Translations under genes and position numbers: made by a program
Shown: positions 20,881-58,109 of the stretch, one piece after another
How positions within the stretch are numbered: the first letter of the stretch is position 1
Layout: every line of letters begins with the position of its first letter
The notes under the pieces: model-generated
Seen by the model: only the letters and a program-made list of their open reading frames with translations
What the model was told of the DNA's origin: nothing
Database searches by the model: none
NCBI RefSeq assembly: GCF_001421485.1
Contig: NZ_LMKK01000001.1
Span: forward strand, 1,102,361-1,166,360
DNA from: Agreia sp. Leaf210
GTDB taxonomy: Bacteria; Actinomycetota; Actinomycetes; Actinomycetales; Microbacteriaceae
Direction of reading: 5' to 3'
DNA: 64,000 nt

Positions 20881-20939
20881 GTGCCCGAATACCTCCATTC
20901 CGTCGCCGCGATGACAGGGGAATGGCGGGATTCGGGCAC
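20881..20939. repeat. 59-bp palindromic element, copy 1 (intergenic)
   Basis: The left arm GTGCCCGAATACCTCCATTC (20881-20900) and right arm GAATGGCGGGATTCGGGCAC (20920-20939) pair at 18 of 20 positions around a 19-nt loop. It lies between convergent genes, so it could also act as a terminator. Same length and arms as the copies at 44464-44522 and 52466-52524. Confidence 0.88.
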
Positions 20940-38615: not shown

Positions 38616-38741
38616 GTAGTCGACGCGCGTAGATGAGTCCGGGATCGTTCGATTCGGCCGCCCGATTTCTCCGAGCACGGCTCGGCACATACGCCCCACG
38701 CACACCAGCGGCGACACTGGATGCAAGGGGAGATACGCACC

Positions 38742-41700
38742 ATGGAGAACAACACCGGCGAGCCAGTCAGGCGCGCACCGAGACACGCAGCACCGATGAT
38801 CGACGGTGACGAACCGACGGGCGACGCTCCCCTCAAAGACGCTCCTCTCGAAGAAGCCCCGGTCGAAGACGCTCCCCTTACCGACGCGTCCCCAGGCGCA
38901 TCCCCCGTCGACGCCCCCATCGATCCCGAAGACGCCGTCGTGCTCAGCCGCCTCGAGCGCAACGACGACTCCCCCGCGCGGGTACGCAACTGGAAGCGCG
39001 ACCTGCTCGACCTCACCCTGCGCAATCCGCTGCTCAACATGCCGCGCACCCAGAAGGTGCTCGACCTCGTCGTGCCGCCGGGCCTGCTCCCCTCGATCGA
39101 CGACGCCGTGCACGCGGGCCGCAAGCTGCGCCTCTCGAGCGGCCTCGACGCATCCGGCCGCAAGCGGGTCGACGGCATCGACTCGCACACGCCGCTCGCG
39201 CACGACGAGCTGAGCGCCGTCTTCCGCACCTCGCGCACGCTCTTCTCCCAGGTCGACGATGAGAAGCACCGCAAGCAGCTGCGGGCCATGAAGCGCGAGG
39301 CCGAATCCCTCGAGCAGGAGACGGGCAGCAATTACCTGTACCTCACGCTCGGCACGCTGATTCACACACGACCGGATGGGCGCGAGGCGCGCGCTCCCCT
39401 GTTCCTCATGCCGGTCCGGCTCACCGGCGGCCTGTCGTTCACCCCCTACTTCCTCGCCGCCGAGGGCGACGATCTGGCCACTCCCAACCTGTGTCTGCTG
39501 CAGTGGTTCGAGACCACGCAGGGGCTCGACCTCTCCGAGCTGCGCGAACCTGCCATCGACGACTCGGGAATCGCGATCGAGGCGGTCTTCGACGGAATCC
39601 GCCGCCAGCTCGCGGAAGCCGAGCTGCCCTACCGACTCGAGGAGTCGGTGAGCCTCGCCATCCTGCGGTTCTCGACCTTTCAGATCTGGAAGGATCTCGA
39701 GCGCAATTGGCGCTCTCTGCTCTCGAACCCCGTGGTCAGGCACCTGGTCGAACGACCCGGCGAGACCTTCGTCGAGCCGGCCGGCAACGCCCGGCCCGAG
39801 ATCGATGAGGCCGCTCTGAGACTGCCGATCGCGGCCGACGGCTCGCAGATGGCCGCCGTCGTGCGCGCCACGAGCGGCCAGTCGTTCGTTCTCGAAGGCC
39901 CTCCGGGCACCGGCAAGTCGCAGACCATCACGAACCTCATCGCGCACGCGCTCACCGAGGGCAAGACGGTGCTGTTCGTCGCCGAGAAGCAGGCCGCCCT
40001 CGAGGTCGTGAAGAGGCGCCTCGACGCGATCGGCCTCGGTACGTTCAGCCTCGAACTGCACGGTGCGAAGCAGTCGATGAACACGATCCGCGAGCAGCTG
40101 CGCGAGTCGTTGCGCCTGCGGGTGCCGACCGATCCGCACGCGTGGGCGCTGGCCGACACACGGTTGCGTTCGGCGATCGCCGAGCTCGACCGGCATCCGG
40201 CGCGCGTGCATTCGCCCAACGCCCTCGGCTACACGGTCTGGTCGGCATACGACGCACTGGCGACGCTCGGCGAAGGGCCCACGGCGGCCGTGCCCGCGAA
40301 CTGGCTCACGACGACCCCCGACGAGAGCCCCACGATTCTCACCCGCGACTTCCGCGACGCCGCGCAGCGCTTCGGGCTGCGCCCGGGCCACCCATGGCTC
40401 ATCGCCGGGGCGACCGATCCGGCCCAGCTGCAGGTTGCTCCGGTCACCGACTCTCTGCGTGATCTCGCAGCCGTTCGCCCCCGTCTCGATGAACTCTCGT
40501 CCGAGGCTCGCCTCGCCCTCGGAGACCTTCGCCCGGCGACCGAGCTGCCCGTCGCATCCCGCCTGCTCGAGGCCCGGTCGCGCGGCCTGCTGCCGGCCAC
40601 CGACGCGCTCGCGACCATCGACCGATCGAGCTGGCGCGAGGCATCCGATGCCCTGCGCGCCGGGCTCGTCGACTACCTCGAGCGTCACGCCACGGTGCTC
40701 GCGAATGCGTCTGCCGCGGCGATCGAGGCGCCCAAGCTCGACGAGTGGGCCGAGCGGTCTGGCACTCTCGACGCCGCCTGGTTCGTGCCCGAGCTGCGTC
40801 GCCGCTCGATCCGCGCGGGTCTGCGGCCACTGCTGCGCGCCGGGTTCGAGCCGAGCGGCAAGGCGGTCACGCCGCTGCTCGTCGGGCTTCAGGCCGCACG
40901 ATCGGATGCGCAGGAGCTCCAGCGCCAGGCGGCCGCTCTGGCGGGACTCGTCCTCCCGACCGGCTGGCAGCCCTACGCGCCCGACGCGAAGAACGTGCTC
41001 GACACGGCTGTGCGCACCTCACTCGGATCGGTCTGGCTGGCGAAGCGCACTCCGCGCGCCTGGGGCTGGATCTCGAACGCGCGCGACGCCGGCGAGGCCG
41101 ACGCCGCGGTGCGCGACGGCGCGATCGTTCGCGACATCGACGCCAGCTGGAACCGCTGGCTCGCCGCCGTCGGGGCCACCGGTCTGACGGTTCGGCAGTG
41201 GGCTCACGGCCGCGACTGGGTCTCTGCCTGGGCCACCGACGAGGTCGCCTGGCTCATCGACGTGCGCGCCACCGGACTGCTGCAGCTTCAGCGCTTCGCT
41301 GAGACGCGGCGCCAGCTCGAGCACCTGCGCGAACTGGGTCTCGCAGGCTTCAGCACACAGTTGGCGACGGGCCAGATCGAGGCGGCCGACGCATCCGAGG
41401 CCCTTCTGCGGGGGCTCGCCACGGCGTCGCTCGACGAGCGACTGGCGGCGACCCAGCTCGACAGCTTCGATGGCGACGCCCAGGACCGAAGCGTCTCGGC
41501 GTACCGAGACCAGGGTGCCCTGGTGCGAGAGCAGCTGCGCAGCGAGCTCGCCTCCGAGCTGCTCGCCGCCCGACCCTTCGACGCCGATGAGTTGCGCGGC
41601 GAGGTGGCAGAGCTCGCTCGCCAGATCGAGCGCAAGCGCGGTGGCCTCGCTTTCCGCGAGGTGGCTCGCCGCTACCCGCGAGCGCTCACTTCGATCGTGC

Positions 41701-43709
41701 CGGTGTTCCTCATGAGCCCCGGCTCGGTGGCGCACTTCCTCGATCCCGACAGCATCGAGTTCGACCTGGTGATCTTCGATGAGGCCTCGCAGATCAGGGT
41801 TCCGCAGGCCATCGGCGCGATGGGCCGCGGCAAGGCCGTGATCGTGGTCGGCGACTCGAAGCAGATGCCGCCCACGCGCATCATGCAGGTGGATGCGACG
41901 GGTCCCGGCACACCCGCCCCCGACCGCGATCAGCCGTTGGTCGTCGAAGACCTCGAGTCGATCCTCACCGAGTCGGTGGAGTCGGGGCTGCCGCAGCTCT
42001 GGCTGAACTGGCACTACCGCAGTCAAGACGAGAGCCTCATCGCGTTCTCGAACGCCGCGTACTACGGCAACAAGCTCGTGAGCCTCCCGTCGCCCAGCAG
42101 TGCGGGTGCGAAGGCGACCCCGGCCGGCTCGACCGCCACCGGTCTCAGCTGGCGCCGCGTCGACGGCGTCTTCGACCGCGGACGCACGCGCACGAACGAG
42201 GTCGAGGCGCAGGCCATCGTCGACGAGATCGTCTCGCGCCTGCGCGCCCCCGCCACGATGCGCGAATCGATCGGGGTGGTCTGCTTCAACGTGCAGCAGC
42301 GCGACCTGATTCTCGACAAGCTCGAAGACAGCACCGACCCGGTCATCCAGAAGGCGCTGCTCGCGGCCCCGGGATCGGAGCTCTTCGTGAAGAACCTCGA
42401 GAACGTGCAGGGCGACGAGCGCGACACGATCCTGTTCTCGTTGGACTTCTCGAAAGACCCCGACACGGGCACGCTGCCTCTGAACTTCGGGCCGCTCAAT
42501 CTGCCCGGAGGCGAGCGCCGGCTCAACGTGGCCGTGACGCGCGCCAAGCGGCAGGTCGTGCTGTTCAGCTCGTTCGACGCGGCCGACATCCAACTCACCC
42601 GCTCGCGCGCTCAGGGCATCGCCGACCTCAAGGCGTATCTGACCTTCGCCGCGACCCGCAGTGTCGGCGCGCTTCCCGGCGGAGGTCGGGGCGGAGCACA
42701 GGATGCGGTGACCGGCAACCACGGGCGATTCGTCGACGAGATCGCCACCGCCCTCCGCGATCGCGGCCTCGAGGTCGAGACCGGCCTCGGGCTGTCGTCG
42801 TTCACCGTCGATCTCGCCGTGCGCCGACCAGGCAACACGTCGTGGGCTGTCGCCGTGATGGTCGACGGGCCCGGTTGGGCCTCGCGGGCAACGGTCAGCG
42901 ACCGCGACGGCGCGCCGAACCTGCTCGTCGACGTGATGTCGTGGCCGGCCGTGATCCGGGCCTGGTTGCCCGCGTGGATCCGTGACCGGAGCGCCCTCAT
43001 CGCTCGCATCGTCGTCGCTGTCGACCACCCCGCCAGTGCGCGACTGCCCGACGCGGATGCGGCCCAGGCCGTGCGCGACGCCGGCAAGGCGGCCGATCGG
43101 GCTGCTGCAGACGCTGCGGCCGAGAAGGCGTTCCCGACCGCCGTGTCGACGTCGACGCTCGCGCGCGAGCTGCCCGTGTTCGAGGCCGCAGACGACAGCG
43201 CGATCCATCCGCAGTCCGCGCTCGACAACATCGACTCCGAGCCTGTCATCCGGTCGATGGCGGCAGACATCCTCGAGGCCGAGGGGCCGATCCCGCTCGA
43301 CCGCCTGATCGGCACGATCGCCCACCGCTTCGACTACACCCGGGTCGGCGATGCGAAGCGCGCCCTGTTGCAGCAGATCGTGCGCAAGGAGTTCGCGGTC
43401 GCCCCCGATGACTTCGTGTGGCCGGAGAGCCTCGACTCGTCGAGTTGGCGGGGTGCACGTCGCACCTCGTCGAGCGCTGTTCGACCCGTCACCGACGTGA
43501 GCCCGCAGGAGATCGCGAACGCGATCGAACTTCTGCTCGCCGAATCGCTGTCCATCGACTCCGACGAGCTGCTGCGCGAGACCGCCTCGGTGCTGGGCTA
43601 CTCGAGACTCACGGAGCAGACGCGCACGTGGATCGAACGCGGGCTCGCGCTGGCTCTCTCCGAGAACCGAGTGCGGCGCGAGGGCACGAGGCTCGTTCGG
43701 GCGCAGTAG
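38742..43709 (+). CDS. DUF4011-helicase-Vsr-like nuclease-DUF3320 protein (Hhe-type antiphage candidate)
   Basis: A 1655-residue multidomain protein. A low-complexity Asp/Ala/Pro N-terminus (about 20-70) is followed by the DUF4011 domain (WKRDLLDLTLRNPLLNM). The superfamily-1 helicase has Walker A GPPGTGKSQT at 386-395, Walker B FDEASQI with Asp 1013, VVGDSKQMPPT, and motif VI NVAVTRAKRQV near 1262. A Vsr/MTES_1575-type nuclease follows (Asp 1357 in FTVDLAV, Asp 1375 in MVDGPGW). DUF3320 is at about 1496-1570. This architecture is that of the Hhe defence protein described by Gao and co-workers. ATG 38742 has GGGGAG upstream. Confidence 0.9.
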   Translation: MENNTGEPVRRAPRHAAPMIDGDEPTGDAPLKDAPLEEAPVEDAPLTDASPGASPVDAPIDPEDAVVLSRLERNDDSPARVRNWKRDLLDLTLRNPLLNMPRTQKVLDLVVPPGLLPSIDDAVHAGRKLRLSSGLDASGRKRVDGIDSHTPLAHDELSAVFRTSRTLFSQVDDEKHRKQLRAMKREAESLEQETGSNYLYLTLGTLIHTRPDGREARAPLFLMPVRLTGGLSFTPYFLAAEGDDLATPNLCLLQWFETTQGLDLSELREPAIDDSGIAIEAVFDGIRRQLAEAELPYRLEESVSLAILRFSTFQIWKDLERNWRSLLSNPVVRHLVERPGETFVEPAGNARPEIDEAALRLPIAADGSQMAAVVRATSGQSFVLEGPPGTGKSQTITNLIAHALTEGKTVLFVAEKQAALEVVKRRLDAIGLGTFSLELHGAKQSMNTIREQLRESLRLRVPTDPHAWALADTRLRSAIAELDRHPARVHSPNALGYTVWSAYDALATLGEGPTAAVPANWLTTTPDESPTILTRDFRDAAQRFGLRPGHPWLIAGATDPAQLQVAPVTDSLRDLAAVRPRLDELSSEARLALGDLRPATELPVASRLLEARSRGLLPATDALATIDRSSWREASDALRAGLVDYLERHATVLANASAAAIEAPKLDEWAERSGTLDAAWFVPELRRRSIRAGLRPLLRAGFEPSGKAVTPLLVGLQAARSDAQELQRQAAALAGLVLPTGWQPYAPDAKNVLDTAVRTSLGSVWLAKRTPRAWGWISNARDAGEADAAVRDGAIVRDIDASWNRWLAAVGATGLTVRQWAHGRDWVSAWATDEVAWLIDVRATGLLQLQRFAETRRQLEHLRELGLAGFSTQLATGQIEAADASEALLRGLATASLDERLAATQLDSFDGDAQDRSVSAYRDQGALVREQLRSELASELLAARPFDADELRGEVAELARQIERKRGGLAFREVARRYPRALTSIVPVFLMSPGSVAHFLDPDSIEFDLVIFDEASQIRVPQAIGAMGRGKAVIVVGDSKQMPPTRIMQVDATGPGTPAPDRDQPLVVEDLESILTESVESGLPQLWLNWHYRSQDESLIAFSNAAYYGNKLVSLPSPSSAGAKATPAGSTATGLSWRRVDGVFDRGRTRTNEVEAQAIVDEIVSRLRAPATMRESIGVVCFNVQQRDLILDKLEDSTDPVIQKALLAAPGSELFVKNLENVQGDERDTILFSLDFSKDPDTGTLPLNFGPLNLPGGERRLNVAVTRAKRQVVLFSSFDAADIQLTRSRAQGIADLKAYLTFAATRSVGALPGGGRGGAQDAVTGNHGRFVDEIATALRDRGLEVETGLGLSSFTVDLAVRRPGNTSWAVAVMVDGPGWASRATVSDRDGAPNLLVDVMSWPAVIRAWLPAWIRDRSALIARIVVAVDHPASARLPDADAAQAVRDAGKAADRAAADAAAEKAFPTAVSTSTLARELPVFEAADDSAIHPQSALDNIDSEPVIRSMAADILEAEGPIPLDRLIGTIAHRFDYTRVGDAKRALLQQIVRKEFAVAPDDFVWPESLDSSSWRGARRTSSSAVRPVTDVSPQEIANAIELLLAESLSIDSDELLRETASVLGYSRLTEQTRTWIERGLALALSENRVRREGTRLVRAQ

Positions 43710-43715
43710 CCGTCG

Positions 43716-45035
43716 CTAGTTCAGTCGCGGCGTGCGCGTGCGCACTTCGCGCAACACGAAGCCCGCGATGACGACGAGTGCTCCCGTCACGACCGCGGGC
43801 AGCGGCAGCGTGATCACGAGCACCGCGCAGCCGAGCGCCCCCAGCACGCTCACCGCACGCGGATATCGCCGAAACGCCCGGGCCTGCCGAAACGCGGCCA
43901 GGTTCGCGACGAAGTAGTACAGCAGCACACCGAACGACGAGAACCCGATCACTCCGCGCAGATCCGCGACGAGCACCAGCACCACGACCACGGCACCCAC
44001 CACGAGCTCCGCGCGATAGGGCGTCTTGTAACGCGCATGCACCGCGCTGAACCAACGCGGCAGATCTCCCTCGCGCGCCATCGCGAAGGCCGTGCGGCCG
44101 AGCCCGGCGATGAGCGCCAGCAGCGCGCCGAGCGAGGCGAGAGCGGCCCCGATTCGCACCAACGGCGCGGCCCACGCCCATCCATTGGTCGTCACGACGT
44201 CGACGAGCGGGTTGTCGGTGGCCGCAAGACCGGATGCGCCGAGCGCCCCGAGCGCGGTCACGCCGACCGCGGCGTAGACCACCACCACGACCGCGAAGGC
44301 GATGCCGATAGCCCGAGGAATGTTCTTGGCCGGGTCGCGCACCTCTTCTCCGAGGGTGGCGATGCGCGCGTACCCCGCGAAGGCGAAGAACAGCAGCCCA
44401 GCCGACTGCAGAACGGCGAGTGGACCGCCGATCGCGCTTTCCACCTCGGCGTGCGCAGGAACTGTGCCCGAAAGCCTCCATTCCCCGCCCCCGCCGAACC
44501 ACGATTGGAGGGATTCGGGCACAATCGCCCAGCTTCCGCCGATCACTCCGGATGCGATGACCACCGCGAGCAGGGCCAGCACCGGAATCACGATCACCTT
44601 CGTGAGCAGCGCGGTGCGGGTGATGCCGAAGAGGTTCACCGTGACGAGCACGACGACCACGGCGACCGCGACCGGTCGAGCCCACTCGGAGGGGACGGCG
44701 TAGGCCGCGAACACCATGGCCATGGCGGCCGAGCTGGCGGTCTTGCCGATGAGAAAGCTCCAGCCGGCGGCGAAGCCCCAACGCGGTCCGAGCTCCTCGC
44801 GGCCGTAGACGTAGCTTCCCCCGGCCGACGGATACTGCGCCGCCAACTGCGCTGACGACGACGCGTTGCAGAACGCGACGATCGCCGCCACGACCAGACC
44901 CACGAGCATCCCGGCCCCGGCGATCTGCGCTGCAGGCTGGAATGCGGCGAAGACTCCCGCGCCGATCATCGACCCGAGACCGATGAAGACGGCGTCGCCC
45001 AGACCGAGGCGCCGTTCGAGGCGGGATGACATCAC
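43716..45035 (-). CDS. APC-family amino acid permease carrying an in-frame palindromic insert
   Basis: A 439-residue transporter with about 12 helices. It begins RLGLGDAVFIGLGSMIGAGVF, shows SAGGSYVYGREELGPRWGF and LLFFAFAGYARIATLGEEVR, and has AFAMAREGDLPRWFSAVH near the eighth helix. The peptide VPESLQSWFGGGGEWRLSGT in the loop before LLFFAFAGY is encoded exactly by the palindromic repeat at 44464-44522 and looks extra to the family. It should import amino acids by proton or other ion coupling. The specificity is unknown. Confidence 0.88.
   Translation of the reverse strand: MMSSRLERRLGLGDAVFIGLGSMIGAGVFAAFQPAAQIAGAGMLVGLVVAAIVAFCNASSSAQLAAQYPSAGGSYVYGREELGPRWGFAAGWSFLIGKTASSAAMAMVFAAYAVPSEWARPVAVAVVVVLVTVNLFGITRTALLTKVIVIPVLALLAVVIASGVIGGSWAIVPESLQSWFGGGGEWRLSGTVPAHAEVESAIGGPLAVLQSAGLLFFAFAGYARIATLGEEVRDPAKNIPRAIGIAFAVVVVVYAAVGVTALGALGASGLAATDNPLVDVVTTNGWAWAAPLVRIGAALASLGALLALIAGLGRTAFAMAREGDLPRWFSAVHARYKTPYRAELVVGAVVVVLVLVADLRGVIGFSSFGVLLYYFVANLAAFRQARAFRRYPRAVSVLGALGCAVLVITLPLPAVVTGALVVIAGFVLREVRTRTPRLN
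44464..44522. repeat. 59-bp palindromic element, copy 2 (inside the APC permease gene)
   Basis: Arms GTGCCCGAAAGCCTCCATTC (44464-44483) and GATTGGAGGGATTCGGGCAC (44503-44522) pair at 17 of 20 positions. Its minus strand is read through by the permease frame as V-P-E-S-L...E-W-R-L-S-G-T without a stop. Identical in length to the two intergenic copies. Confidence 0.87.
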
Positions 45036-52465: not shown

Positions 52466-52524
52466 GTGCCCGAATACCTCCAATTGTTCGCGTACGGGTA
52501 TCGCGAATGGAGGTATTCGGGCAC
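52466..52524. repeat. 59-bp palindromic element, copy 3 (intergenic)
   Basis: Arms GTGCCCGAATACCTCCAATT (52466-52485) and GAATGGAGGTATTCGGGCAC (52505-52524) pair at 18 of 20 positions. It lies between the convergent YchJ-like gene and the Asp23 cluster. Read on either strand it gives VPEYL and WRYSGT. Confidence 0.88.
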
Positions 52525-58041: not shown

Positions 58042-58109
58042 ATCCGCGCCGGTTCGGCGCATCCGCTGCCGGTCGACCTGGCGCGGATAGACCGAACAGG
58101 CGCGGATGC
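58042..58109. terminator. Long imperfect hairpin between convergent genes
   Basis: CATCCGCGCCGGTTCGG (58042-58058) pairs with CCGAACAGGCGCGGATG (58093-58109) at 16 of 17 positions. The 34-nt loop itself contains GCATCCGC and GCGCGGAT, which can pair. It probably ends transcription from both sides. Confidence 0.65.

Follow-up and report, generated by a model that had tools for sequence, protein, structure and literature searches.

How did a near-perfect palindrome come to lie within the reading frame of a membrane transporter gene? The question is raised by a stretch of 64,000 nucleotides of the Agreia sp. Leaf210 genome (the window), in which positions 43716 to 45035 on the minus strand encode an APC-family amino acid permease of 439 amino acids (PF00324, E 1.7e-38). 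A preliminary description had reported a palindromic element inserted in frame into this gene, and the analysis confirmed this: the sequence at positions 44464 to 44522 (no strand assigned), GTGCCCGAAAGCCTCCATTCCCCGCCCCCGCCGAACCACGATTGGAGGGATTCGGGCAC, is a near-perfect 59-bp palindrome with arms of about 17-19 bp and a variable centre, which we call type A. Its in-frame translation is VPESLQSWFGGGGEWRLSGT, with neither stop nor frameshift. The about 20 extra residues and the undisturbed frame described for it also proved correct: the usual gain in permease length is 21 amino acids, that is, 63 nucleotides (59 + 4). The inserted unit would accordingly comprise 59 bp plus about 4 and is probably 63 bp long. 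No clean target-site duplication was found, the flanks of the empty sites under comparison having diverged too far; the single hint of 4 additional base pairs is the 63-nucleotide gain in the permease.

For comparison with orthologues, 81 permease relatives were aligned and roughly 40 outgroup permeases displayed. In the latter the stretch between two conserved anchors mostly measures 61-66 amino acids; a few have 70-72, and their extra sequence is unrelated to the insert peptide. An equivalent loop in distant genera, which the preliminary description had named as counter-evidence, was looked for in the outgroup permeases and not found. Between the same anchors A. bicolorata and Agreia sp. Leaf283, both without the element, have 63 amino acids, and four element-bearing Agreia have 84, 88, 84 and 84. 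The expectation that orthologues lack the peptide and match on both sides of it held for the other genera and for two Agreia, but not for the four Agreia that carry it. The insert peptide is also present in A. pratensis (L009), Agreia sp. VKM Ac-1783 (L032) and genome G004 (L161), and its occurrence in several Agreia argues that the insertion is old. The genomes G002 and G004 are sisters, the first without and the second with the permease element, and the carriers form no clade; the centres of their permease copies are similar. The simplest reading is therefore a single old insertion followed by at least two losses, which suggests that the cell can do without the peptide. A search for the permease in the G006 segment retrieved for this comparison did not find it.

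The palindrome belongs to a small dispersed family. The pattern GTGCCCGAA-N-TTCGGGCAC occurs three times in the window (0.00 expected from 100 shuffles). The other two copies, at positions 20881 to 20939 and 52466 to 52524 (no strand assigned to either), are intergenic and lie between convergent gene 3′ ends. The whole Leaf210 assembly (G000; 3.54 Mb in 5 contigs) contains 12 copies, all of 59 bp except a single one of 60 bp, and the other seven Agreia genomes have 6, 4, 3, 9, 8, 2 and 0, a match on both strands being taken as one. The nearest named relatives of G000 are A. pratensis, A. bicolorata, Agreia sp. VKM Ac-1783 and Leaf283, and convincing type-A copies are confined to Agreia. Placement relative to genes was assessed with a simple home-made gene caller, according to which the typical copy is some tens of bases away from a stop codon, in many cases where two genes converge. 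The permease copy alone is clearly coding (1 of 12 in G000); another, own900, was placed by the caller in an ORF with an uncertain start. On average 5.3 of the 6 frames are open per copy, compared with 4.6 for random 59-mers of the window. All G000 copies fall within the 310-1215 kb interval of contig C1; this contig holds 35% of the sequence (12/12 copies, binomial P 3e-6), and our best model, set out below, leaves this confinement unexplained. In G006, seven of the eight copies lie on C1 within 103-1013 kb, the exception being at 2687 kb. The palindromes were also considered as intrinsic terminators, which was rejected because, judged from the flanks, the hairpin has no T-tract on either side. 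A known structured RNA was ruled out by the lack of any match in an Rfam gathering search of the window.

Type-A copies occupy orthologous places in different Agreia species. At the 20881-20939 locus, G006 has an element at the same place with diverged arms, and no copy is present in A. pratensis, G003 or G007. The 52466-52524 copy has positional counterparts in A. bicolorata and G004; it is absent in G003 and was not found in A. pratensis. Identity across orthologous loci is 87-98% for the arms and 49-88% for the centres. Both arms of one copy change in concert, for example from AA to TT on each side, and the arms in G006 have a lineage-specific form (CCCTCG-like versus CCTCCA), although several of its loci are orthologous to G000 copies. 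That the arms evolve together across loci points either to a shared partner acting in trans or to conversion among the copies.

A candidate for such a partner is encoded by the only gene of G000 with a type-A palindrome on both sides. This gene of about 950 bp (G000:C1:310207-311145) lies between palindromes at 310140-310198 and 311256-311314. One of the flanking palindromes is situated just beyond its stop codon, the other about 100-150 bp upstream of its start. Two copies 1.1 kb apart flank the gene in G000, G001, G002, G004 and G006. In G003 (L264, 5195-7801), from our reading of the sequence, citrate-synthase-type genes and a small HTH gene replace the unit. We considered a type IV toxin-antitoxin pair as well; this was rejected, as the gene fills the space between the palindromes and no partner gene lies within the unit.

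The encoded protein P0001 has 315 amino acids and was modelled with high scores (AlphaFold pLDDT 94.3, pTM 0.90). Its N-terminal part matches the PADLOC AbiEi profile over residues 10-155 (E 4.5e-16), and Foldseek finds the AbiEi structure 6y8q (E 6.2e-6). For the C-terminal part, Foldseek gives a match to Vsr (1vsr) with a probability of 0.91 though an E value of 0.26; the homing endonuclease I-Bth0305I is among the lower-ranked, weak matches. Paralogues of P0001 match DUF559/MTES_1575, some of them under the curated cut-off. Three acidic residues are conserved across 62 homologues (E204 and D236 in 62/62, E247 in 60/62). The 1vsr match, the DUF559/MTES_1575 matches of the paralogues and the conserved E204, D236 and E247 together speak for a PD-(D/E)XK fold. 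P0001 is thus predicted to combine an AbiEi-type DNA-binding domain with a Vsr/PD-(D/E)XK nuclease fold in one chain, and we infer that it is an active nuclease. A search of PDB sequences gave no match, and a search of plasmids with the type-A protein gave five matches, all remote. In the window, positions 38721 to 43709 encode a 1662-amino-acid SF1 helicase-type protein with DUF4011, DUF3320 and REase_MTES_1575, which adjoins the permease and is possibly a defence gene. Its REase_MTES_1575 domain belongs to the Vsr-like domain family that also matches the paralogues of the palindrome-flanked protein.

We favour with moderate confidence the reading that the insert in the permease gene is a non-autonomous member of a REPIN-like palindrome family, cognate to this AbiEi-Vsr protein and spread by it. 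AbiEi-type monomers would bind the two inverted arms (about 17-20 bp each, at fixed spacing, 59 bp in all), and the Vsr-like nuclease domain would cut at the palindrome or adjacent to it. New copies would then arise when the cut element is repaired or re-inserted, and would land mostly in permissive DNA near stop codons and rarely in frame, as in a permease loop tolerating 21 extra residues. AbiEi and Rv2827c of M. tuberculosis bind paired 23-bp inverted repeats that are 3 or 13 bp apart (PMC7319586). With the wider spacing the span is 23+13+23 = 59 bp, equal to the type-A length, an agreement that may be a coincidence. Binding, cutting and mobilisation of the palindromes by the cognate protein are inferred, and mobility through it is plausible. 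The spread model has against it the low type-A copy numbers (2-12 where present), the missing clean target-site duplication and, from the data given below, the homologues without matched palindromes, the type-C half-sites of G003 and the lack of dispersed type-D copies.

The same protein could instead act as a regulator. The palindromes would then be operator or regulon sites through which the AbiEi-type protein autoregulates and controls nearby genes, its nuclease fold being incidental or defensive. Such a role would suit the palindrome upstream of the gene start and the conserved arms at orthologous loci, and AbiEi antitoxins do autoregulate via paired inverted repeats in their own promoter (PMC7319586). 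The second copy, however, lies just beyond the stop codon, most dispersed copies are flanked by convergent 3′ ends, a setting in which one would not expect a promoter, and one copy is within a coding sequence; these three placements disfavour the regulatory role, which is the main rival. Sites are also gained and lost between close species, and the catalytic-type residues are conserved. We regard this explanation as unlikely.

Two further palindrome families allow the link between gene and copies to be followed beyond type A. The type-C palindrome has a fixed length of 64 bp, is dispersed over several contigs and is represented in the window at positions 58043 to 58106 (beginning TCCGCGCCNGTTCGG; no strand assigned), just downstream of a stop codon. 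At the type-C locus the unit of palindrome, gene and palindrome is whole in G000, G002, G004 and G007. In G001 and G003 the unit is missing in its entirety from between the same pair of stop codons, and a different palindromic repeat stands in its place. Copy numbers follow the gene in both families, although dispersal was tested in Agreia only. Genomes with the type-A gene have 12, 6, 4, 9 and 8 type-A copies, those without it 3, 0 and 2; type-C half-sites number 27 (G000), 20, 17 and 23 with the type-C gene and 1, 0, 0 and 15 without. The exception is G003, with 15 half-sites and no type-C gene found. One-sided rank tests gave P 0.018 for type A and 0.015 for type C, resting on eight Agreia genomes that share ancestry and are not independent. 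No type-D copies were found beyond the two at its own gene, and G003 has a lone palindrome without a gene at the type-D locus. This state is as expected from deletion between the palindromes; excision fits equally. A further palindromic repeat (GGTCTCGATACGCTCG..TCGACCAGCG) fills several sites that hold a type-A or type-C element or unit in G000; it was seen at L272 (G001), L273 (G003), L154, L265, L274, L381 and L384.

The association of gene and palindromes extends well beyond these families. Most Agreia paralogues of the partner gene each have their own, different pair of matched palindromes. Homologues are present in 111 of 148 sampled actinobacterial genomes, and matched pairs were scored where palindromes with matching arms lie on each side within 450 bp of the gene. 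By this measure 28 of 60 Microbacteriaceae homologues have matched palindromes on both sides, compared with 0/119 displaced windows and 0/175 cross-pairings of loci. A shift-tolerant score gave 30/60 versus 0/119 and 4/351 in the controls, and the flanks of other long ORFs contain matched palindromes in 0/119 and 0/336 cases. In a class-level sample, mostly from other families and orders, 9 of 24 homologues are matched (0/134 cross-pairings), although among these nine L347 is doubtful and L331 comes from Microbacteriaceae itself. The left and right palindromes at one locus are usually equal in length. Over all families, proteins and arms covary weakly but significantly (Spearman 0.21, 0/2000 permutations), a signal driven by close pairs. 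Support for linking the gene with the palindromes is strong. Roughly half of the homologues lack a matched pair over this distance of 450 bp, perhaps through loss, perhaps because the gene can also occur alone. A search of open-access papers turned up no description of the arrangement, preprints and most subscription papers being outside the scope of the search.

These data also bear on the idea that the palindromes are MITE- or REP-like elements moved by an unrelated transposase, with the AbiEi-Vsr gene as a passenger or encoding a host factor that binds them. The architecture is that of terminal inverted repeats, and the mobilising role of the AbiEi-Vsr protein is a proposed one. Yet the dispersed arms match the flanks of the partner gene, paralogues have arms of their own and other long ORFs lack such flanks. 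Seven Agreia genomes were searched for Y1_Tnp (PF01797) without any match, the control genomes being positive, which rules out a RAYT/Y1 transposase as the partner. We consider an unrelated transposase quite improbable. Chromosome-organising, matS-like sites, long palindromes of a single chromosomal region to which a dedicated protein binds, would account for the 12 type-A copies within 310-1215 kb of C1 in a 3.54-Mb genome (P 3e-6) and for the 7/8 G006 copies within 103-1013 kb; the terminus of G006 was not located by sparse GC-skew sampling. Against this, type-C copies are found on several contigs, copy number is low and variable, one copy is in a coding sequence and orthologous copies are not independent observations, so that we hold this role to be very improbable. 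Finally, a Rickettsia-type palindromic element, defined by its spread inside protein-coding genes, could explain a stop-free in-frame insertion in a loop and the excess of open frames (5.3 versus 4.6 of 6), but with one clear coding insertion among 12 copies and an AbiEi-Vsr gene family tied to the palindromes its probability is close to negligible.

Whether solitary AbiEi-Vsr genes between family-specific palindromes, as autonomous units that seed non-autonomous copies, form a new class of mobile element, Actinomycetes-wide and convergent with REPIN/RAYT through an unrelated enzyme, is in our judgement evenly balanced. If true, there would be a role for a large protein family whose current annotation is AbiEi antitoxin or DUF559 protein. 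To our knowledge, no role has been established for AbiEi-family antitoxin or DUF559/endonuclease-domain proteins of this kind. The link to flanking family-specific palindromes makes a role testable, namely that of a REPIN/RAYT counterpart based on a nuclease. Small palindromic repeats served by a dedicated partner gene would then have originated on at least two occasions, with unrelated enzymes, and the translation of such a repeat within a membrane transporter would be accounted for.

Several known systems share parts of this arrangement. The homing endonuclease I-Bth0305I, which belongs to a selfish element, likewise has a Vsr-type nuclease fold (a weak Foldseek match); the Agreia gene is not in an intron, however, and its flanking palindromes also occur elsewhere without the gene. 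With the AbiEi type IV antitoxin and Rv2827c, P0001 shares the fold of its N-terminal part (6y8q) and the PADLOC profile, and known members of that family bind pairs of inverted repeats. It differs from them in its C-terminal Vsr-like nuclease fold, and the Agreia repeats lie on both sides of the gene and are dispersed. No AbiEii toxin gene was noticed beside the partner gene, and there is none within the palindrome-bounded unit.

Rickettsia palindromic elements are palindromes inserted in frame and translatable, as the Agreia palindrome is. The preliminary description had drawn this parallel, which stands in so far as a dispersed palindromic repeat lies in frame in a gene; kinship does not follow, only one of 12 copies being clearly coding. 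The Agreia copies are mostly extragenic and tied to a cognate protein gene, and we know of no counterpart among the Rickettsia elements to an AbiEi-Vsr gene flanked by two copies. With one of 12 copies coding and most near stop codons, the habit is REP/REPIN-like, and this habit sets the type-A element apart: it is not a Rickettsia palindromic element.

The closest parallel is REPIN/RAYT, in which the cognate gene encodes a Y1 (HUH) transposase and REPs reach more than 100 copies (PMC3116915, PMC2817692). Both systems have two inverted conserved arms at fixed spacing around a variable spacer (59-60 bp in type A, 64 bp in type C) and a cognate nuclease-type gene between two copies, one of them very near the stop codon. 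In both, the arms match the cognate gene, copies are biased to extragenic DNA and several independent families occur per genome. The Agreia system, found in Actinobacteria, differs in its cognate protein, which is AbiEi- plus Vsr-like instead of a Y1 HUH transposase, and in its few copies (2-12 of type A where present and 27 type-C half-sites in G000, versus more than 100). With an unrelated enzyme, no PF01797 in the seven genomes searched and few copies, it falls outside the REPIN/RAYT family, yet it works like a member.
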